Source: Bacteroidota bacterium
GTDB taxonomy: Bacteria; Bacteroidota; Bacteroidia; NS11-12g; UBA955
Assembly: GCA_016787485.1 (NCBI GenBank)
Contig: JAEUUL010000014.1
Location: 1 to 64,000, forward strand
DNA length: 64,000 bases
Direction of reading: 5' to 3'
A program made the translations under genes and the position numbers. Shown here in pieces: positions 40,764 through 50,093 of this stretch. Below the pieces are notes generated by a model that was not told where the DNA came from, did no database searches, and saw only the letters and a list, made by a program, of their open reading frames with translations. How positions within the stretch are numbered: the stretch's first letter is position 1; each line of letters begins with the position of its first letter.

Positions 40764-41774
40764 TTAAAATCGTGGAAACAACCGGGCCCGGCGTTTCTTT
40801 TTATACATAAGAACTTCTGCTATTGATTCAGAAATCTGGTGCTTAAAAACCAAATCAATCCAAAAATACTCACCTCCGGAATTCACTTCCAAAAAGTATA
40901 AGTCCCCTTTGTGATTTTCGATAAAGTCAAATGCCCCGTAATTCAGCTGGTAGATATCCATAAACTCCAGAATTTGCTTTTTTAGTTTACCTGGTATATC
41001 ATACTCATACCAATCATATAAAAGGGTTGTACCTTCTTTTCTCCAGTCATCCCTTGCATTTTCCAGCTTTTGAGAATCCACAGCAGCGGTAAATATTTTA
41101 TTACCGGCAACAGTTACACGCAATTCTCTTCGCTTGTCAATATTTGCCTGAAATGTAAGCGGACAAAGTTGAAGACCCATCTTATCTTCCAAATATGATT
41201 CGGGAAACTTATTTGTAAAAACCACATTCTCATTGCCTTTCTCGTCATAAATCGCAAAAGAGTGATGCATTTTCATAATGATCTCTCCCTTCTGATTTTT
41301 GAAAAACCGCTTCAGTTGACTGTTGTCATTTGTCACAAGGGTATTCGGAATTTGCATACCAAGAGATTGGGCAACAGTGAGTTGTTTCATTTTATTCGCC
41401 GCAATTCTGTGCTTCATATAAGTATCCAGTATAAATGTATCGCAAGAATCCAAAGCTCCCCAGAACGCAGTAAGACTTTCATCAATTGTCGGTTTTATAA
41501 AGGCCGGTTTCATATAATGATTGAGATTCTCTCCCAATCGCAATCGACGGTACCAAATGGCATAGAATTCACTTATGTCATGTGTCGTTCCATCAGTGGA
41601 TAGAAAAAAACGAAATTTTCCTTTTTGATATTTACTGCTTATATGGGTTGAAATGGGATATAAGTCTGTGTTGAATCTTACAACCTGGGTATTTTGTCCG
41701 TTCAGAATTTGAGTCACTACATCAACACAGTCATTTTCTGCCGTATGGGTAATAATTAATATCTTTTTTTTCAT
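40764..41774 (-). CDS. Microviridin-type ATP-grasp peptide ligase (MdnB/MdnC family), second in operon
   Basis: 336-residue ATP-grasp enzyme expected to form omega-ester or omega-amide cross-links between side chains of the precursor encoded two genes upstream. The N-terminus (KKILIITHTAENDCVDVV) is the family pre-ATP-grasp domain; ATP-grasp landmarks are EIIMKMHHSFAIYDE (nucleotide-binding Lys), DKRRELRVTVAGNKIFTAAVDS, and the metal-binding FIENHKGDLYFLEVNSGGEYFWID with Glu/Asn ligands. Its ATG overlaps the stop of the first ligase gene (ATGA), so the two are coupled. In the mdn pathway one ligase makes both esters and the other the amide; which is which cannot be read here. The DNA is more AT-rich than its neighbours. 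Confidence 0.88.
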   Translation of the reverse strand: MKKKILIITHTAENDCVDVVTQILNGQNTQVVRFNTDLYPISTHISSKYQKGKFRFFLSTDGTTHDISEFYAIWYRRLRLGENLNHYMKPAFIKPTIDESLTAFWGALDSCDTFILDTYMKHRIAANKMKQLTVAQSLGMQIPNTLVTNDNSQLKRFFKNQKGEIIMKMHHSFAIYDEKGNENVVFTNKFPESYLEDKMGLQLCPLTFQANIDKRRELRVTVAGNKIFTAAVDSQKLENARDDWRKEGTTLLYDWYEYDIPGKLKKQILEFMDIYQLNYGAFDFIENHKGDLYFLEVNSGGEYFWIDLVFKHQISESIAEVLMYKKKRRARLFPRF

Positions 41775-42706
41775 TGTGATAGAAACCTTGCTATAGATTT
41801 TGAAATGGGCAAATGAAGATTTTTCTCAAGCATACCCCATTCTCCGGTAGGATTCACTTCTAAAAAATACCATTCATTCTTCGGCGTATGTATCAAATCA
41901 ATGGCTCCGAAATTCAATCCTAATTCTTGCATAAACCGTTTCAATTTACCTCTGATCGGTGCAGGCAGTTTGCCGGTCTGCCATTGAAATTGTGTTCCGG
42001 GAATGCGCCAATCGGTCTGCCTGTCAAAGATGTTCCCCGGAATTACTCCGCAGTGGAAATCTCCATCTACATAGATGACCCGGTATTCTTCTTTCTTTTC
42101 AACTTTTTCCTGATAGGTCAATGGTGCATTGAGCAACTCCTTGTATTGGGAAGTCTCAAAATCAGACCAATCTGTGGTATAAAAAAACTCTCCGCCACCA
42201 TCCATAGACCAGGACAGTGGAATTTGCAATTTCACCACTGTTGCGCGGGATTGGGTGAATTCCCGGGAGTAATAGGGATGGTTTGTTATAATGGTATCCG
42301 GAACAAGTAAATCACATTTTTTCGCCAGCACCATTTGAACCCACTTGTTTTCTGAATTTGAAATGCATTCCAGCGAGTCCATGATTTTGGTTCCGGGCTT
42401 TAACGTAGTTAAAAATTGTCTCAAAACACGATCTGACTCAGGGAATATTCCCGGATGATAACCTTCCGTTACGAAAGAACCTGGTGATACCCATTTTCTG
42501 ATCCATACCGCGGAAATCAGGTCTGCCGGAATGAACTCCTGTTTAATAATGATTCCATGAACACCGGAAGTAGACAATAATATTTCATAATCCAGAGGAA
42601 AACGATCTGTATATACAATGCGGTAGGGGAGTTGATTCTTGTCCAACTCCCCTGCTACCAAAGGCACACAGTATTCATCCCCTGAATGGGTGAATAACAG
42701 TATCAA
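41771..42706 (-). CDS. Microviridin-type ATP-grasp peptide ligase (MdnB/MdnC family), first in operon
   Basis: 311-residue ATP-grasp enzyme, diverged from its partner but with the same layout: ILLFTHSGDEYCVPLVAGEL at the start, VVKLQIPLSWSMDGGGEFF, KKEEYRVIYVDGDFHCGVI with the Arg typical of the family, and AIDLIHTPKNEWYFLEVNPTGEWGM with the metal ligands. It begins 25 bases after the precursor stop. No ATG is available at the N-terminus; TTG 42706 is the only start that keeps the conserved first strand. The two ligases differ enough to suggest separate reactions (ester versus amide), as in MdnC and MdnB. Confidence 0.86.
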   Translation of the reverse strand: MILLFTHSGDEYCVPLVAGELDKNQLPYRIVYTDRFPLDYEILLSTSGVHGIIIKQEFIPADLISAVWIRKWVSPGSFVTEGYHPGIFPESDRVLRQFLTTLKPGTKIMDSLECISNSENKWVQMVLAKKCDLLVPDTIITNHPYYSREFTQSRATVVKLQIPLSWSMDGGGEFFYTTDWSDFETSQYKELLNAPLTYQEKVEKKEEYRVIYVDGDFHCGVIPGNIFDRQTDWRIPGTQFQWQTGKLPAPIRGKLKRFMQELGLNFGAIDLIHTPKNEWYFLEVNPTGEWGMLEKNLHLPISKSIARFLSQ

Positions 42707-42731
42707 GGTGATATGCTTTTTAACCAGTTAC

Positions 42732-43415
42732 TCAGATGCGGGGTTCATCCCCATCGGAAGGATACTTCAAGGTCATCACTGGTGGATTTGACACCTCGTC
42801 CCTATCCGAAGGGTATTTCAATGTTACAACTACGGGCGGTTTCATAGCTCTTTCCAGTCTTTCCTGCTGGGTAGTTGGTTCCTTTATATCCTCATCCTGG
42901 TCGCTGGGTGATTTCATGGTTGCCTTACTTGAGGGGTCTAGTAAAACGGCCTCTTCATCGCTTGGCCATTGCGTCGTGGCAAAATAATTCACCAATTTCA
43001 CATTTTCATCATCATCAGACGGAGCTTTCATTGTCATAGGACCATCATTATTTGCAATAACGGAACCTGTAAAATCTCCCGGTTCCCTGCGATAATAACC
43101 GTCATCGCCGTCAGAAGGGTATTTAAGGGTTACTGATTCATCTGAATCTGAAGGGTACTTTAACGTATGATAAATGGTGTCTTTCTTTTTATTTGTTGCC
43201 TCTACACGTGTCACCTGCATCTGACCCGTATTGCCCATAATATCTGCATTGTCATGCGGATATTTTGGAGTATCAATTACATCATTTTTTTTGTCCGTAC
43301 CCAAATTTCCAGGTTTTTGATTTTCCAAAAATTTGGCAAACAATGGATCACTGTAAAGCACCTCATTCCCTGATGCACTTTTGCTTTCTTTGGTTGTTTT
43401 TTTATTATTTTCCAT
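42732..43415 (-). CDS. Multi-core microviridin-type graspetide precursor
   Basis: 227-residue precursor. Residues 23-31, DPLFAKFLE, match the PFFARFLE leader helix by which microviridin ligases recognise substrates. Eight cores follow: 49 TPKYPHDNAD, 84 TLKYPSDSDE, 96 TLKYPSDGDD, 128 TMKAPSDDDE, 147 TTQWPSDEEA, 166 TMKSPSDQDE, 198 TLKYPSDRDE, 215 TLKYPSDGDE. In microviridins Thr esterifies the Asp of PSD, Ser the next acid, and Lys forms an amide with the last acid; six cores hold all needed residues. Core 5 has Gln for Lys, core 1 has His for Ser. No signal peptide. ATG 43415 was chosen because AGGAGG lies four bases upstream. It heads an operon with two ATP-grasp ligases. The products are likely protease inhibitors (inference). 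Confidence 0.9.
   Translation of the reverse strand: MENNKKTTKESKSASGNEVLYSDPLFAKFLENQKPGNLGTDKKNDVIDTPKYPHDNADIMGNTGQMQVTRVEATNKKKDTIYHTLKYPSDSDESVTLKYPSDGDDGYYRREPGDFTGSVIANNDGPMTMKAPSDDDENVKLVNYFATTQWPSDEEAVLLDPSSKATMKSPSDQDEDIKEPTTQQERLERAMKPPVVVTLKYPSDRDEVSNPPVMTLKYPSDGDEPRI
42744..43271 (-). repeat. Eight tandem-type core repeats within the graspetide precursor
   Basis: The DNA encodes T-x-K-x-P-S-D-x-acid-acid eight times, with irregular spacing (12 to about 35 residues). The two closest copies (residues 84-93 and 96-105) are two residues apart; the last two (198-207 and 215-224) are separated by SNPPVM-type linker. Codon use differs among copies, so they are not recent perfect duplications. 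Linkers are rich in Asn, Pro and charged residues and show no uniform protease site. Confidence 0.85.
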
Positions 43416-43419
43416 AATT

Positions 43420-43425
43420 CCTCCT
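43420..43425 (-). promoter_or_regulatory. Strong Shine-Dalgarno AGGAGG of the precursor gene
   Basis: The minus strand reads AGGAGG-AATT-ATG. Other genes in the window lack such a site, in keeping with the weak use of Shine-Dalgarno sequences in Bacteroidota. It decides the start at 43415 and hints at high expression or foreign origin. Confidence 0.75.
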
Positions 43426-43481: not shown

Positions 43482-43510
43482 TTCACAAACTGTCAATTTC
43501 ACTTTGTGAA
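43482..43510. promoter_or_regulatory. Operator-like dyad upstream of the precursor gene
   Basis: TTCACAAA (43482-43489) and TTTGTGAA (43503-43510) are perfect inverted copies 13 bases apart, 67 bases upstream of the precursor ATG. A TTGAC (43492-43496, minus) lies between the arms. It may bind a dimeric regulator; the regulator is unknown. Confidence 0.4.
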
Positions 43511-43869
43511 ATGCCGGTTTGACTTTATTAAACCCCAGCATAAAACCATGGCTAGAAGCCATCTCAAAATTCCTTCTGGCCAATTTATGCAGTTTGCTAA
43601 TATTGAACGAAACTTCGCCTTTTTGCGTAATCCTGCGTCACTTCTTTTGTCCAGGCTCCCAGCCTGAACTGCAATAAGTTCCTTGTCTTTCACAAAAAAC
43701 CTTGAAATTGACTCAAAACTCATTTTTGAGATAGCTTCTACTCAGACCTACAATTTTCAAAAAAATGAATGGTAGTAAAAGTAAGAGGATCGCATTGAAT
43801 CTAAAATGCACAAACAATTACAATGTCGAATATTCAGGCAGTCAAAAAAAAAGGTCGGATATCATCACA

Positions 43870-44382
43870 TCAATGCGGCAATGAATCCCGAAACTTTCCA
43901 TACAACCATGTTCCCGCAATGGCGCTGAGCAGAGTAATGGCAATCACACTGAAACCAGCTCCAATCTGCGCAAATAAAGGTCCCGGACATGCTCCGGTGA
44001 TGGCCCAGCCTATGCCGAACAACAATCCGCCATAGATCTGACCTTTGCTAAATGTTTTGGTTTCTATATGTATGGATTCGCCATAAATGCTTTTCAGCTG
44101 AAAACGCTTAATGATCCAGATGCTGAAAGCAGCTACAATCACTGCTGTTCCTATAACACCATACATGTGAAATGACGTGGCCTGAAACATCTCCTGAATG
44201 CGGAACCAACTCACAATTTCTGCTTTCACAAAGGTGATTCCGAAGAGAATACCTGCCAGCGTATATTTAAAATTGTACCACCAGGGGTGCACCAGTTCAG
44301 AATCATTGGCACACATGGTATCCAGATGACGGATTTCAAATTCTTCCGGCGTTTCGGTATGCGGATTTATTTCTTGTTGCAT
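43870..44382 (-). CDS. YeeE/YedE-type membrane protein, C-terminal half of a split transporter
   Basis: 170 residues: about 30 soluble N-terminal residues, then four helices. GGLLFGIGWAITGACPGPLFAQIGAG carries the conserved Cys of the YeeE/YedE (DUF395) family, members of which import thiosulfate or other sulfur species; the related PmpB-type halves sit in persulfide operons. It pairs with the other half directly upstream (one base gap). Last gene of the sulfur operon; function in moving sulfane sulfur is inferred from context. Confidence 0.82.
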   Translation of the reverse strand: MQQEINPHTETPEEFEIRHLDTMCANDSELVHPWWYNFKYTLAGILFGITFVKAEIVSWFRIQEMFQATSFHMYGVIGTAVIVAAFSIWIIKRFQLKSIYGESIHIETKTFSKGQIYGGLLFGIGWAITGACPGPLFAQIGAGFSVIAITLLSAIAGTWLYGKFRDSLPH

Positions 44383-44383
44383 T

Positions 44384-44947
44384 TTAAAGGTGTTTTAACA
44401 AAAATGGAAGAATTACATTGGCAGATAAAAATCCTCCTGCCATGAACATAATTGTGGCTACGAGTGAAGGCCATTGAAGATTTGCCAATCCCATAATGGA
44501 ATGTCCACTCGTACAACCTCCTGCCCAACGGGTACCAAATCCTACAAGGAATCCACCCAGTACAAAAAATACAAATCCTTTCAGACTAAACAGATGATCC
44601 CAGGAGAAAATTTCTGACGGCAATAAATGACTGTAGTCTGTGATACCATAAGAAAGCAGGCGGGCTTGTGTTTGCTCAGCAACGACCACAGGTTCAGGAT
44701 TTGCAAGCCAGAATGCTGCAATGGTTCCACCCAGCAAAACCCCACCCACAAAAAACAAGTTCCAGACTTCTTTCTTCCAATCGTACGTAAAAAAAGGAAT
44801 TTTCGCAGGCAGACAGGCCGCACAAATGTGACGCATCGAGGAACTGATGCCGAATTTTTTATTGCCGAGTAAGAGCAGTGCCGGCACTGTGAGGCCTATA
44901 ATAACACCGGCGATAGACCAGTGCCAGGGCTGAGTGAGTATTTCCAT
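44384..44947 (-). CDS. YeeE/YedE-type membrane protein, N-terminal half of a split transporter
   Basis: 187 residues with about five helices. GFGTRWAGGCTSGHSIMGLANL is the YeeE/YedE signature with the Cys thought to hold sulfur, and CAACLPAKIPFF near residue 43 holds two more Cys. Together with the next gene it rebuilds a full-length transporter, as in BigR-regulated operons of Xylella and Agrobacterium. It follows the persulfide dioxygenase gene by six bases. Confidence 0.85.
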   Translation of the reverse strand: MEILTQPWHWSIAGVIIGLTVPALLLLGNKKFGISSSMRHICAACLPAKIPFFTYDWKKEVWNLFFVGGVLLGGTIAAFWLANPEPVVVAEQTQARLLSYGITDYSHLLPSEIFSWDHLFSLKGFVFFVLGGFLVGFGTRWAGGCTSGHSIMGLANLQWPSLVATIMFMAGGFLSANVILPFLLKHL

Positions 44948-44953
44948 CTGTTA

Positions 44954-46366
44954 TCAGCTGAGTGTGGAAGGACAAACGTAATCCGTGCGAGGTACATCAG
45001 TTTTGCTGATGGCCGAAAATCCCCCATCCACTTCGGTAAAATTATCCCAACCGCGCGCTTTGAGTATACTGGCGGCAATCATGCTGCGGTAACCGCCGGC
45101 GCAATGAAGATAAAAGTGTTCATCTTTGGGAAACCCTGCCAGATTATCATTGATAAAATCCAGAGGCAGGCTCTTGGCCTTATCTACATGCTCGCTGGCA
45201 TATTCACCCGGTTTGCGCACATCGATTACTTTGGGAGCCTCTGCTTTGTACCTGCCTGCAAATTCATCGGCAGAAATGCGGTGAATGCTGTCTGTCTCTT
45301 TACCGGCAGCCACCCAGGCTCCATATCCACCCTGCAAATAGCCAATCACATAGTCATAACCCACACGAGCCAACCTTGTAACCACTTCTTCTTCACGGCC
45401 GGGTTCTGTAATAATCAGGATTTGCTGCTTTACATCCGGAATAAGGGCACCTACCCACGGGGCAAACTGCCCGTCGATACCAATATTGATGCTGTTGGGG
45501 ATAAAACCTTTATGAAAATCAGCAGCCTTCCGGGTGTCCAACATCAGGGCTCCTGTTTCGTTTGCGGCAGCCTCAAAAGCTTCCGGACTCAGCGCTTGTA
45601 AGCCACGCTTTAACACGTCGCTGATGCTGTCATATCCCTGCTTATTCATGGCCACATTCAACGGGAAATATGCAGGGGGAGGCAACAATCCATCCGTAAC
45701 TTCCTTTACAAATTCCTCTTCGGTCATATCGGCACGCAAGGCATAATTCAGACGCTTTTGTTCTCCAATGGTACTTACTGTTTCCTTGCTCATGTTTTTA
45801 CCACAGGCACTGCCAGCCCCATGGGCAGGATATACAGTTACGTCATCGGGTAAAGTCATTACTTTTTCCCTTAATGAATGAAACAAAGTTGCTGCCAACT
45901 GCTCCTGTGTCATACTTGCCGCTTTCTGGGCAAGATCCGGACGACCTACATCACCGATAAACAAAGTGTCTCCCGTAAACAGTGAGTGCGGATTCCCGTC
46001 TTTGTCCTTCAGCAGAAAACAGGTGCTTTCCATGGTATGCCCGGGGGTGTGAATGACATGGAGAGTAACATCGCCCAGCGGAAATACCTCACCATCCTTG
46101 GCTATGTGTGCTTTATACCCGGGATTTGCGTTGGGTCCATATACAATTGTGGCTCCCGTGGCATTTGCGAGGTCAACATGCCCACTTACAAAGTCCGCAT
46201 GAAAATGAGTCTCGAAAATATAGCGTATGGTTACTCCATCCTTGGAAGCGCGGTCCAGATACGGTTGTATCTCGCGCAGCGGATCAATGATCGCGGCTTC
46301 ATTTCCGTCTGTAATGTAATAGGCTCCCTGAGCCAGACAGCCTGTGTAAATCTGTTCGATTTTCAT
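44954..46366 (-). CDS. CstB-like persulfide dioxygenase-rhodanese fusion
   Basis: 470 residues. The N-terminal metallo-beta-lactamase domain (1-240) has THFHADFVSGH, HTPGHTMEST, TGDTLFIGDVGRPD and AHGAGSACG, matching ETHE1/Blh persulfide dioxygenases, which oxidise persulfide to sulfite with Fe(II). The middle rhodanese-like domain (about 265-355) lacks the catalytic Cys: the active-site loop reads ITEPGREEEV. The C-terminal rhodanese has the active loop HCAGGYRS with Cys. This order, dioxygenase, pseudo-rhodanese, active rhodanese, is that of S. aureus CstB, which turns persulfides into thiosulfate. Cytoplasmic. Central enzyme of the operon. Confidence 0.92.
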   Translation of the reverse strand: MKIEQIYTGCLAQGAYYITDGNEAAIIDPLREIQPYLDRASKDGVTIRYIFETHFHADFVSGHVDLANATGATIVYGPNANPGYKAHIAKDGEVFPLGDVTLHVIHTPGHTMESTCFLLKDKDGNPHSLFTGDTLFIGDVGRPDLAQKAASMTQEQLAATLFHSLREKVMTLPDDVTVYPAHGAGSACGKNMSKETVSTIGEQKRLNYALRADMTEEEFVKEVTDGLLPPPAYFPLNVAMNKQGYDSISDVLKRGLQALSPEAFEAAANETGALMLDTRKAADFHKGFIPNSINIGIDGQFAPWVGALIPDVKQQILIITEPGREEEVVTRLARVGYDYVIGYLQGGYGAWVAAGKETDSIHRISADEFAGRYKAEAPKVIDVRKPGEYASEHVDKAKSLPLDFINDNLAGFPKDEHFYLHCAGGYRSMIAASILKARGWDNFTEVDGGFSAISKTDVPRTDYVCPSTLS

Positions 46367-46374
46367 AGTTCGAT

Positions 46375-47787
46375 TTATTTTTTTGGTTTGTTTTTCTGTT
46401 TTTGAAACTGGTAATTCACAACCAGATTGGATTGAAACAAATTCACCCGGTTGTATTCATATCTGGCAAGCAATGTGCCGTCTTCCATGTTCTTCTTGGC
46501 TACAAGTAACAGTTGTACTTCCAGACCGGATATTCCAGGGATCTTGTATACAAAATTGACATTGGCCTGCAAATAATCATTCAAAGTATATTTATTCAGC
46601 AAAGGACTCCCGGTAACAGGTGGCATGCGATAGTATCCACCGGCAATTGAAAACTGTAAGCCTTTAATGGTTCCTTTGTTCTGGTAACCAGCAGTAAATG
46701 CCCAAACATCTGCGGTTCCCTCGTTGCGTTCTCTGGGTAAGAAGGTATAAAAGGGTTCCCTGCCCCACTCTCTGGGAAACAAAAAGCGGCCCTGTTTTCC
46801 AATTCGTGTGGCATTCATATGAAACAAGTGTTTTTTCCATCCATACGCCACCCTGCCGCTGATTACCATGCTGCTTGTCTGTTCAAAATATCTTTTCTCT
46901 GGCAAAATATCCCCACCATGAAATAGCCGGTCTTGTCTGGTCATTTGAAGGCCAAACATCCAGTTGCCGGCATTGTAGCGACCCTCGGCAAATGCAGTGT
47001 TCATTACATCCCACCAAAGATAGTCCCAAACTTCAACCTGCAGTTTTTTACTCCTCAGACTCCAGGAATAGATCCCCAGAGAAGTCAGCGGTAAATTTCC
47101 CTGATATGCGGAGGGTTTATCCTTCAGGGTGCGTCCCGCCGGGTACAAACCCACAGACTGATCCATGCTGTACCATTTTACAGTACTGCGGGGAGAAATG
47201 CCCGATATATGGGATGCCGATAAAGACTGTCCTCTTCCCAGGGGAATTGTGGTATGAAATCCCTGCACCAGGGTTCCGCGCATCCGGCCATCCTGTGCAT
47301 TCAAAAACGGAGTGTTCAGCATAAACCTTCCCCCCTGAAATTTCCAACCGGGTATCAGTGAGATGTTTCCATATACAAACAGTTCTTCAGGTCTCCATAA
47401 AAAATTCCGGGTACCGGGCCGCGCCACATCATAGAGTCCCACTTCGTAACGGTTTAATTGCCCGGTTTGCGGGTCTGCACCTTCAAGGTGCGAAGATGCA
47501 ATATTGGTTTGCACCCAACCACTGAGTCCAAAACCCAAGCCGTGGTATAGAGGAGAAACATAACCAACGGATGCACCAGCTGCTATTGCGTAATCGTCTT
47601 TCAGCTGTCCGTTTTGGTAATTATCTGTCATCCAGAATAGCCGGCTTTGCAGTACGGGCTTTCCCCCTCTGAGCCATTTACCCATAGGTCCTTTGGATTC
47701 AGGCATAGAATCAGGCAAAATCCCTCTGGGTTGGGCCGAAACCGCAGCGACCAGAAAGAAGGCGATATGGAATAAACAGGTTTTCAC
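46375..47787 (-). CDS. Outer-membrane beta-barrel protein, OprD-porin-like
   Basis: 470 residues with signal peptide (FHIAFFLVAAVSAQ) and many amphipathic strands ending in aromatic residues, including the last strand LFQSNLVVNYQFQ. The opening LQSRLFWMTDNYQNGQLKDDYAIAAGASVGYVSPLYHGLGFGLSGWVQTN resembles OprD/OprF-type porins of Campylobacterota and Bacteroidota. It starts with GTG overlapping the cytochrome stop (GTGA). In this operon it may let thiosulfate, sulfite or another anion cross the outer membrane; this is inference from location. An alternative is a capsule-assembly-type barrel. Confidence 0.72.
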   Translation of the reverse strand: MKTCLFHIAFFLVAAVSAQPRGILPDSMPESKGPMGKWLRGGKPVLQSRLFWMTDNYQNGQLKDDYAIAAGASVGYVSPLYHGLGFGLSGWVQTNIASSHLEGADPQTGQLNRYEVGLYDVARPGTRNFLWRPEELFVYGNISLIPGWKFQGGRFMLNTPFLNAQDGRMRGTLVQGFHTTIPLGRGQSLSASHISGISPRSTVKWYSMDQSVGLYPAGRTLKDKPSAYQGNLPLTSLGIYSWSLRSKKLQVEVWDYLWWDVMNTAFAEGRYNAGNWMFGLQMTRQDRLFHGGDILPEKRYFEQTSSMVISGRVAYGWKKHLFHMNATRIGKQGRFLFPREWGREPFYTFLPRERNEGTADVWAFTAGYQNKGTIKGLQFSIAGGYYRMPPVTGSPLLNKYTLNDYLQANVNFVYKIPGISGLEVQLLLVAKKNMEDGTLLARYEYNRVNLFQSNLVVNYQFQKQKNKPKK

Positions 47788-48710
47788 TTCTTATGGGCAG
47801 CTTCTATGGGTGAAAAAGGTCCGAACTTATGCTGTGTGGCACTAAATCCGTCAGCAAAGGGGCCAAAAGGATGGTCCACCGGCTTTTCTTCCAGTCTGGG
47901 CCAGTCTCTGGACAAATCTGCAGCCGGCCTGGGCATACTGCTGATATAAGCAGCTATATCCCATGCCTGCTCTGCGGTTAATTGCGGATTGCTTTGGCTG
48001 CTTCCCAGCGGCATATTGCTGTGTATAAAGCCGGCCAGCCTGCTCAGCCTGTACAATCCTGCACCTGAGTTAAAACTCTGAGATCCCCATAATGGTGGAA
48101 AGGTATATTCGTTTGCGGCAATTACACCTTGTCCTTCAACTCCATGACAACTCTGACATTTTTGGGAGTAAATTTCCTTTCCCGACTCTGGACTGGCGGC
48201 ACGGTTCATATACGGCAAACGTTCAATGCCTTCCTGCATCTTTATTTTTCCATTTTTCACATCCCGGCCTACCCACAGTACCCAGGCTGCAATAGCCTGC
48301 ATTTCCAGGCTGCCGGTATCAAGGGCTTTTCCGTTTAAACTGCGTTCAAAACAATCGTTGATGCGCCTTGCCACACCTTCAACCCTGCCGCTGCGGGGCC
48401 TGTATTTGGGATAGGTGGAGGCCACAGCCAAAAAATTGTTGCCATACGGCCGGGTACCTGCATCCAGGTGGCAGTTCTGGCAATTCATGCCATTGCTATT
48501 TTTGTTTATAGAACCCGAAGGGCCAAAATATTTGCCGGTGTGCTGCACCAGTTCCCTGCCGTAATTTCTGAGAGAATCTGCACTGATTTCAGGCGCACCT
48601 GCAAAAGGATGTTTGCCCCCCAAAGCAAGATATACTGCAATAAATATCAGAACCATTCCCAGAAGAATGCCTGACTGTGCCATGCGATATGCAGTTCTCT
48701 CCAAGGTCAC
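47784..48710 (-). CDS. Dihaem cytochrome c, thiosulfate dehydrogenase (TsdA)-like
   Basis: 308 residues: one N-terminal helix (13-31) as anchor or signal, then two cytochrome c domains with CQNCH (77-81) and CQSCH (185-189). MNCQNCHLDAGTRPYGN and RINDCFERSLNG are TsdA hallmarks; Cys120 of DCFERS is a candidate axial ligand of the active haem, as the Cys ligand in TsdA. TsdA interconverts thiosulfate and tetrathionate in the periplasm. Start GTG 48710 overlaps the methyltransferase stop; ATG 48683 is an alternative. In this operon it would use thiosulfate made by the CstB-like enzyme. Confidence 0.85.
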   Translation of the reverse strand: MTLERTAYRMAQSGILLGMVLIFIAVYLALGGKHPFAGAPEISADSLRNYGRELVQHTGKYFGPSGSINKNSNGMNCQNCHLDAGTRPYGNNFLAVASTYPKYRPRSGRVEGVARRINDCFERSLNGKALDTGSLEMQAIAAWVLWVGRDVKNGKIKMQEGIERLPYMNRAASPESGKEIYSQKCQSCHGVEGQGVIAANEYTFPPLWGSQSFNSGAGLYRLSRLAGFIHSNMPLGSSQSNPQLTAEQAWDIAAYISSMPRPAADLSRDWPRLEEKPVDHPFGPFADGFSATQHKFGPFSPIEAAHKK

Positions 48711-49300
48711 TTTTTATGTATCTCCACCCAAAATTCCTGTCCGGCCCGCTTGGGATGTGAATCCAAGCAAGGGGAAAAGGAGAAATCAAACGCCGTTTGA
48801 AAAAGAGACTCATACTCTGATAGGGTGCCACCGAAAGGAGGTCCCTGGAAAGGGAACTCCACATTGAAAAGCAGGCCGCAAATTCTTCCACCCGGGGAGA
48901 GCAATCGGGCGGCCTGTTTTACATAGGCTGGTCTCAATACGGGGTCCAGCGCACAGAAAAAGGTCTGTTCCAGAATGAGATCGTATTCTCCCTTGTGTTC
49001 GAAAAAATCGCCATGCACTACATGTACAGCCGGATGGCCTGCAAATTTCTCACGAAGTGTTTGCACTGCGCCTTCAGCAATATCAATCAGTGTTACATTT
49101 TTACACCCTTTTTCCAACAAATATTCCGCTTCCCAGGCATTGCCGCAGCCCGGAATAAGGATGCGCACTGAAGTATCAGAAAGAGTATCTGCAAAAGATA
49201 CCATTGGCGGACTTGGTGCACCCAAATCCCAGCCGGTATCGCCGGTTTGATAGCGTTGCTGCCAAAAAGCAGCATCCAGATGTTGTGGGTTGTTATCCAT
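48707..49300 (-). CDS. TPMT-type S-methyltransferase
   Basis: 197-residue SAM-dependent methyltransferase of the thiopurine/thiol methyltransferase family. DAAFWQQRYQTGDTGWDLGAPSPP is the family N-terminus; SAM motif I is ILIPGCGNAWEAEYL, followed by VTLIDIAEGAV, GDFFEHKGEYDLILEQTFFCAL and the FPFQGPPFGGTLSEYE substrate loop. Relatives methylate thiols, halides, selenite or tellurite. In a sulfide operon, methylation of sulfide or a small thiol to a volatile product is a reasonable guess. It overlaps tauE by eight bases and the cytochrome gene by four. Confidence 0.87.
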   Translation of the reverse strand: MDNNPQHLDAAFWQQRYQTGDTGWDLGAPSPPMVSFADTLSDTSVRILIPGCGNAWEAEYLLEKGCKNVTLIDIAEGAVQTLREKFAGHPAVHVVHGDFFEHKGEYDLILEQTFFCALDPVLRPAYVKQAARLLSPGGRICGLLFNVEFPFQGPPFGGTLSEYESLFQTAFDFSFSPCLDSHPKRAGQEFWVEIHKK

Positions 49301-50093
49301 GAAAAACGGTTTCCTTTAGAATGATGTATATACCCATAGCCAAAACGAACCAACCAAAGGCGGGTTTCAGTTTTTCGCCAGGTATGCGTTTTGCGAGTTG
49401 CTGTCCGATAAAGATACCTCCAATGCTGAAGGCAGTGAAAATCAGCAGCAGTTGCCAGTCTATAGCCATTTTACCCAAATCTCCGGTAAAACCAATCAAC
49501 GATTTTGCGGCGATGATCATCAGTGAAGTCCCCACGGCCTGCTTCATGGGCAAGCCGGTAAACAGCACCAGTGCAGGAATGATAAGAAATCCACCTCCTG
49601 CACCCACGAGTCCTGTGATTACACCCACCACTGCACCTTCTGCAAGAATCATGGGATAATTAAAACCGCCGGAGGACTCTTTTGTCTCTGCCTTAGCACG
49701 GGGCTTTCGCAGCATACTCCACGAAGCCAGAATCATGAGTATGGCAAACAACCCAAGCAAAAACAACCTTTTGGTAAGTTCAAAATCACCGAGATGCAGC
49801 ATGACCTGAGGAATATGAGGCATAATCCATTGCCGGGTTGCATATACTGCCAGTATACTGGGTATGCCAAAAACCAACCCCGTACGTATGTCAAGCAAAC
49901 CCTGGCGCCAGGCAAAAATGGCCCCCACCAGACTGGTACTGCCCACAATAAAAAGAGAATAGGAGGTGCTCAGTTCTGCGTTTACCCCCAGAACATACAC
50001 CAAAATAGGAACAGTAAGTATACTGCCTCCACCACCAATGAGACCAAGTGACACCCCGATTAGTATGGCAAGTAAATAACCCAGAATTTCCAT
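49293..50093 (-). CDS. TauE/SafE family sulfite/anion exporter
   Basis: 266-residue inner-membrane protein with about eight helices. The two internal repeats show [24 protein letters not shown] and [34 protein letters not shown], the TauE/SafE signature. Homologues next to CstA/CstB or BigR export sulfite or related sulfur anions. The ATG shares one base with the arsR stop (TAATG). Confidence 0.92.

Follow-up and report, generated by a model that had tools for sequence, protein, structure and literature searches.

A divergent multi-core microviridin-type graspetide operon in a Bacteroidota bacterium

The window, the whole 64,000-nucleotide stretch of Bacteroidota DNA analysed here, carries a compact locus which raises the question of whether a precursor with eight core-like units, followed by two ATP-grasp ligases, belongs to a known class of graspetides and what product it would yield. 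Three closely packed genes, encoding a precursor, then an MvdC/MdnB-type ligase and then an MvdD/MdnC-type ligase, were found on the minus strand at 40764-43415, and an earlier sequence-only reading had correctly given the extent of the locus, the motif DPLFAKFLE in the leader and the pair of ATP-grasp ligases. The features of the locus are as follows.

43497-43511, no strand assigned: perfect 6-bp inverted repeat TTTCAC-AAA-GTGAAA (TTTCACAAAGTGAAA), ~80 bp 5' of the precursor start
43420-43425, minus strand: Shine-Dalgarno-like AGGAGG, 4 nt ahead of the precursor ATG
42735-43415, minus strand: microviridin-type precursor, 227 aa, ATG at 43415
41771-42706, minus strand: MvdC/MdnB-type ATP-grasp ligase, predicted lactam former, TTG start (profiles, AMdnB match and tree)
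40764-41774, minus strand: MvdD/MdnC-type ATP-grasp ligase, predicted lactone former (profiles, CdnC match and tree)

All three reading frames are open, and the order precursor-MvdC-MvdD is common to the window and to Nostoc, Chryseobacterium and Flavobacterium loci. The inverted repeat is a possible operator. No RNA element was returned by an Rfam search of the locus, and promoter and terminator scans of the same region gave nothing better than chance.

The precursor matched the NCBI microviridin/marinostatin family NF033738 with 99.4 bits (cut-off 26) and the Pfam family PF12559 (Inhibitor_I10) with 44.9 bits, both far above chance. Its leader motif DPLFAKFLE, whose counterpart in relatives is PFFA(N/R/Q/S)FLE, is of the P(F/L)FAxFLE type that marks microviridin-type (group 1) graspetides. 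The leader and cores, identified in the sequence, are listed in order from the N-terminus.

43323-43349, minus strand: leader recognition motif DPLFAKFLE
43242-43271, minus strand: core 0, TPKYPHDNAD, both small-lactone partners (S and first acid) missing
43137-43166, minus strand: core 1, TLKYPSDSDE, strict
43101-43130, minus strand: core 2, TLKYPSDGDD, strict, two residues (SV) past core 1
43005-43034, minus strand: core 3, TMKAPSDDDE, strict
42948-42977, minus strand: core 4, TTQWPSDEEA, both lactam partners (K and second acid) missing
42891-42920, minus strand: core 5, TMKSPSDQDE, strict
42795-42824, minus strand: core 6, TLKYPSDRDE, strict
42744-42773, minus strand: core 7, TLKYPSDGDE, strict, with the C-terminus three residues on

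Six copies therefore follow TxKxPSDx(D/E)(D/E) strictly, and the remaining two each lack one ring pair: core 4 has Q in place of K and A in place of the second acid, and core 0 has H in place of S and A in place of the first acid. The sequence-only reading had counted eight copies of the full motif, which holds for six and was overstated for these two. The cores are separated by spacers of 25, 2, 22, 9, 9, 22 and 7 residues. Comparison of the six strict cores gave a saturated pS of 0.96 and a pN of only 0.19, which indicates old copies kept by purifying selection. Both an assembly artefact and a recent tandem array were considered and were ruled out by this strong divergence of the cores at the DNA level.

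Each ligase scored higher with the profile of its own type. The MvdC-type ligase gave 250.8 bits with TIGR04185 and 154.9 bits with TIGR04184, and the MvdD-type ligase gave 368.1 bits with TIGR04184 and 233.7 bits with TIGR04185. These scores lie below the strict NCBI equivalog cut-offs (425 for TIGR04185 and 475 for TIGR04184), so the two enzymes are divergent members of their families. The best solved structure for the MvdC-type ligase was AMdnB (7m4s, 3.9e-52); for the MvdD-type ligase the best was CdnC (7mgv, 1.4e-73), and the ATP-grasp ligase 5ig9 was also matched (1.5e-66). In a joint ligase tree the C and D types separated with full support, and the pair from the window fell one on each side (100%). 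A profile comparison with the MvdC and MvdD families had been proposed together with the microviridin-type assignment, and both the family scores and the matches to AMdnB, MdnC and CdnC structures bear that assignment out.

The lactone ligase is placed inside a Bacteroidota clade (99% SH-aLRT) and outside the Chryseobacterium clade, on a long branch and with no close relative; it is ~38-44% identical to its Bacteroidota relatives. End branches amount to 0.87 (lactone ligase) and 1.85 (lactam ligase) changes per column, the latter being the longest in its tree, where its placement is unsure. The window ligases retain 60/64 and 44/47 of the near-invariant columns, so that the conserved ligase residues, as read from the alignment, are intact. 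The long isolated branches and the scores below the equivalog cut-offs count against the main reading to the extent that the regiochemistry could differ. On the combined evidence of precursor families, ligase families and gene order, the operon is very probably a minimal microviridin-type graspetide cluster with a multi-core precursor. It is a genuine, intact and divergent microviridin locus of the multi-core sort and not a new kind of system.

By analogy with the characterised homologues AMdnC, MdnB and MdnC (PMC5934393, PMC11672978), from which the leader docking, ring order and cross-links are carried over, PLFAKFLE would dock the MvdD-type ligase, which in every core would form the ester Thr1-Asp7 and next the ester Ser6-acid9; Lys3 would afterwards be linked to acid10 as a lactam by the MvdC-type ligase. 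What the sequence itself shows is which genes are present, to which families the ligases belong, which residues each core has and, as described below, that ring partners are lost together. Action on each of several cores within one precursor has been observed in vitro for AMdnC (PMC5934393). The six strict cores are predicted to become tricyclic with the loss of three waters each, core 4 to become bicyclic with the loss of two, and core 0 to acquire a lactone plus a lactam at most. Judged by core residues, the six fully tricyclic products and two variants anticipated by the sequence-only reading would thus be the right expectation. In total ~20-22 waters would be lost, so that the average mass of the precursor would fall from 25,408 Da to ~25,011-25,047 Da. 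Each unit would act as a substrate-like inhibitor of serine proteases, inhibition of which is the known activity of the microviridin family. In all six strict cores Leu or Met stands between Thr and Lys, which suggests elastase-, chymotrypsin- or subtilisin-like targets. The precursor combines eight cores of differing build, three ring patterns and spacers of 2-25 residues in one natural substrate, and so lends itself well to studying how a pair of ligases copes with many sites served by a single leader.

The number of cores was compared with that of relatives. A query with a single ligase returned no relatives among named genomes; with an alignment of six ligases as query, 80 named loci were obtained, the best-scoring 80 of 347 relatives, and 99 precursors from these 80 and the window were counted. 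Within this best-scoring 80 of 347, strict cores per precursor reached at most four in Bacteroidota, at most four in Cyanobacteriota and at most two in Acidobacteriota and Planctomycetota, and the window precursor (six strict, eight in all) was exceeded only by two Myxococcota MAGs; the true maximum may be higher, since only the best-scoring loci are covered. The operon thus raises the number of cores known for a single Bacteroidota precursor. Multi-core precursors are themselves ordinary in the phylum, with 2-4 cores in 26 of its 54 precursors in the same best 80 of 347 loci, and one multicore product, chryseoviridin from Chryseobacterium, has been characterised (PMC8939145, PMC12291112). The earlier description of such a precursor as little described in Bacteroidota consequently applies to the combination of six strict cores, eight in all, without a GG site, of which no description was found in the accessible literature, and does not apply to multi-core precursors in general; novelty is modest. 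What distinguishes the locus is the highest core number of the Bacteroidota precursors compared here, the lack of a GG site and of an adjoining transporter or protease, low GC and rarity in its family.

The two Myxococcota MAGs encode 13 strict cores (L096, JAUXRI010000275.1, 3631-4953) and 12 strict cores (L103, JACSRE010000051.1, 5-1078), in each case with Gly-rich spacers and followed by two ATP-grasp ligases; both numbers exceed the up to five cores per precursor given in reviews (PMC7823629, PMC13039773). Microviridin-type precursors with ligases were also observed in MAGs of Planctomycetota and Acidobacteriota (L049, L053, L072, L079 and L118), phyla seldom named for microviridins in the reviews consulted.

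Among known systems, AMdnA/AMdnB/AMdnC of Anabaena sp. PCC 7120 resembles the locus in having one leader, several TxKxPSDx(D/E)(D/E) cores and both a lactam and a lactone ligase, and AMdnA also includes a non-canonical quasi core, as the window precursor includes variant cores (PMC5934393); AMdnA has three cores and the window precursor eight. Class II microviridins, as the definition of Ahmed et al. 2017 is relayed in PMC7823629, have one leader and several cores, at most five. The window precursor has one leader and eight core-like units, and with six strict cores it passes that limit, which reflects the sample of 2017 and is no rule, since L096 and L103 reach 12-13. Class II/III precursors typically bear a GG motif and often have a C39 peptidase transporter in the cluster (PMC13039773), whereas the window has neither. 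Chryseoviridin (CdnA/CdnB/CdnC, Chryseobacterium gregarium) is likewise a multicore Bacteroidota system, and its CdnC is the best structural match of the lactone ligase. It is, however, made from several short GG-containing precursor genes and not from one long precursor without GG, and the window locus accordingly falls outside the chryseoviridin family of short GG precursors and Chryseobacterium-type loci. Two Bacteroidales MAGs (L052 and L081) resemble the window in having several cores per precursor, with two- or three-residue spacers, and share the 12-mer TMKAPSDDDENV with core 3, but their precursors are 86 aa long, with four strict cores, a GG site and no altered cores. The Myxococcota loci share the long multi-core precursor followed by two ATP-grasp ligases and differ in their 12-13 strict cores, Gly-rich spacers, GG site and ligases on a separate branch.

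No G[GAS] is present ahead of the first core of the window precursor, whereas GG, GA or GS stands there in 52/52 other multi-core precursors of Bacteroidota and Cyanobacteriota (26 from each phylum, all G then G, A or S) in the best 80 of 347 loci; two-core precursors of Acidobacteriota and Planctomycetota likewise lack GG. No transporter, protease or acetyltransferase belonging to the cluster was found among the neighbours of the operon. The genome encodes a single C39 transporter, on another contig and beside a separate GG-leader peptide. Release and export would therefore not be encoded in the cluster: either the irregular spacers would be cleaved by host proteases, or the chain, once modified, would work uncut. 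The C39 peptidase ABC transporter itself (L130 5331-9323; contig C29, ~117.3-121.3 kb) is followed by a 431-aa protein that is HlyD-like by eye; the 102-aa peptide next to the two has a GG leader (MSNDNLDPNKKSLSDFTNDAVSGSNVKGGDGG...), and by sequence the genome appears to encode here a bacteriocin-like export system distinct from the operon.

An even chance is given to cleavage in trans, in which a host protease (for example the target protease itself, or a NosP-like peptidase of the M1 type) cuts the spacers to give seven or eight separate inhibitors. A cognate protease is missing from many graspetide clusters (PMC13039773), GluC releases single cores from AMdnA in vitro (PMC7823629, PMC5934393), and the spacers contain ordinary cleavable residues; against this, the spacers share no common motif that could serve as a cleavage site, only two residues separate cores 1 and 2, and no dedicated protease lies near the cluster. 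That the modified 227-aa chain is never cut, and acts as a multi-headed inhibitor which binds several proteases or survives proteolysis while blocking its attackers, is less probable but a live possibility, since a leader-bearing modified precursor inhibits elastase with a low nanomolar IC50 (PMC11672978). The absence of the G[GAS] site, of a nearby protease and of a C39 transporter not already paired with its own GG peptide fits an uncut chain, as do motif-free spacers of 2-25 residues. Two-residue spacers nevertheless occur in GG-bearing relatives too (23/116 spacers in the best 80 of 347 loci), the GG-free two-core precursors of Acidobacteriota and Planctomycetota weaken the argument from the missing site, leader proteases such as NosP can lie elsewhere in the genome (PMC13039773), and no export signal for the intact chain was identified. 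A more specific form, rather doubtful at present, is a mixed uncut polyprotein with six tricyclic units, one lactam-free bicyclic unit and one small-lactone-free cage, the whole chain acting as a multivalent protease trap. The missing cut site thus poses a testable question, namely whether some graspetides act as uncut, multi-headed inhibitors.

The two variant cores were evaluated by Fisher test against the core-like 10-mers of up to 84 loci, window included (236 in all). Loss of Lys3 was coupled to loss of acid10 (p=1.9e-5) and loss of Ser6 to loss of acid9 (p=2e-8), and the four non-partner combinations showed no coupling (p>=0.19). These counts include kin cores, for example four Calothrix-type cores that probably reflect one event, so significance is overstated, although coupling is still seen between true partners only; with each of the 117 unique cores counted once, p was 0.0025 for K3/acid10 and 1e-5 for S6/acid9. 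Through this coupling, sequence comparison backs the lactam pairing as well as the small-lactone pairing and offers a means to predict which cores form fewer rings. Other lineages show such paired losses too (TLAYPSDNES, TMAYPSDQEG and TKKFPPEIPD), and cores 0 and 4 accordingly look like cores built with fewer rings and not like products of random decay. Core 4, without its lactam pair, is marinostatin-like: marinostatin lacks the lactam ring (PMC13039773) and core 4 likewise has only two lactone pairs, although it is one unit inside a microviridin-type precursor. Lactam-pair losses have also been reported within the chryseoviridin family (PMC8939145).

It is unlikely that cores 0 and 4 are instead decaying repeats without function. 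Deviation is confined to two of eight cores, six good ones remain in the precursor, and core 0 additionally has Pro at position 2, all of which would fit decay; each odd core nonetheless misses exactly the two partners of one ring (chance ~0.2 per core and 0.04 for both), the same paired losses recur elsewhere, and AMdnA constructs lacking the non-canonical quasi core went unprocessed (PMC5934393).

The cluster has a GC content of 40.0%, compared with 46.8% for the window, and is among its GC-poorest 2.65-kb stretches. The precursor is present in 1/70 genomes of the host family, and a strong MvdD-type ligase in 1/108 genomes of the host order, this genome only. Low GC and patchy distribution suggest horizontal acquisition. 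No donor of the operon was found; the lactone ligase sits within a Bacteroidota clade without a close relative. Strong Shine-Dalgarno sites such as AGGAGG are uncommon in Bacteroidota, and the one at 43420-43425 fits acquisition and proves nothing. That the operon is inactive cargo, lately acquired by the lineage, would agree with the GC difference and with its rarity in the family and order, but is highly improbable given three open frames, intact ligase residues and cores under purifying selection.

A weak second precursor match in the same genome (C34) was rejected, since it lies in a frame of 24 aa that contains a stop, and no ligase adjoins it. Within the family one other ligase was found (G040), but no microviridin precursor lies close to it.

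The operon is flanked by a YebC-type regulator on one side and by sulphur-transport genes on the other. On the latter side, a sulphur-related run on the same strand (43870-50093) includes two YeeE/DUF6691-type transporters, a metallo-beta-lactamase/rhodanese fusion and, both recognised by eye, a cytochrome-like CxxCH protein and a TauE/SafE-like permease.
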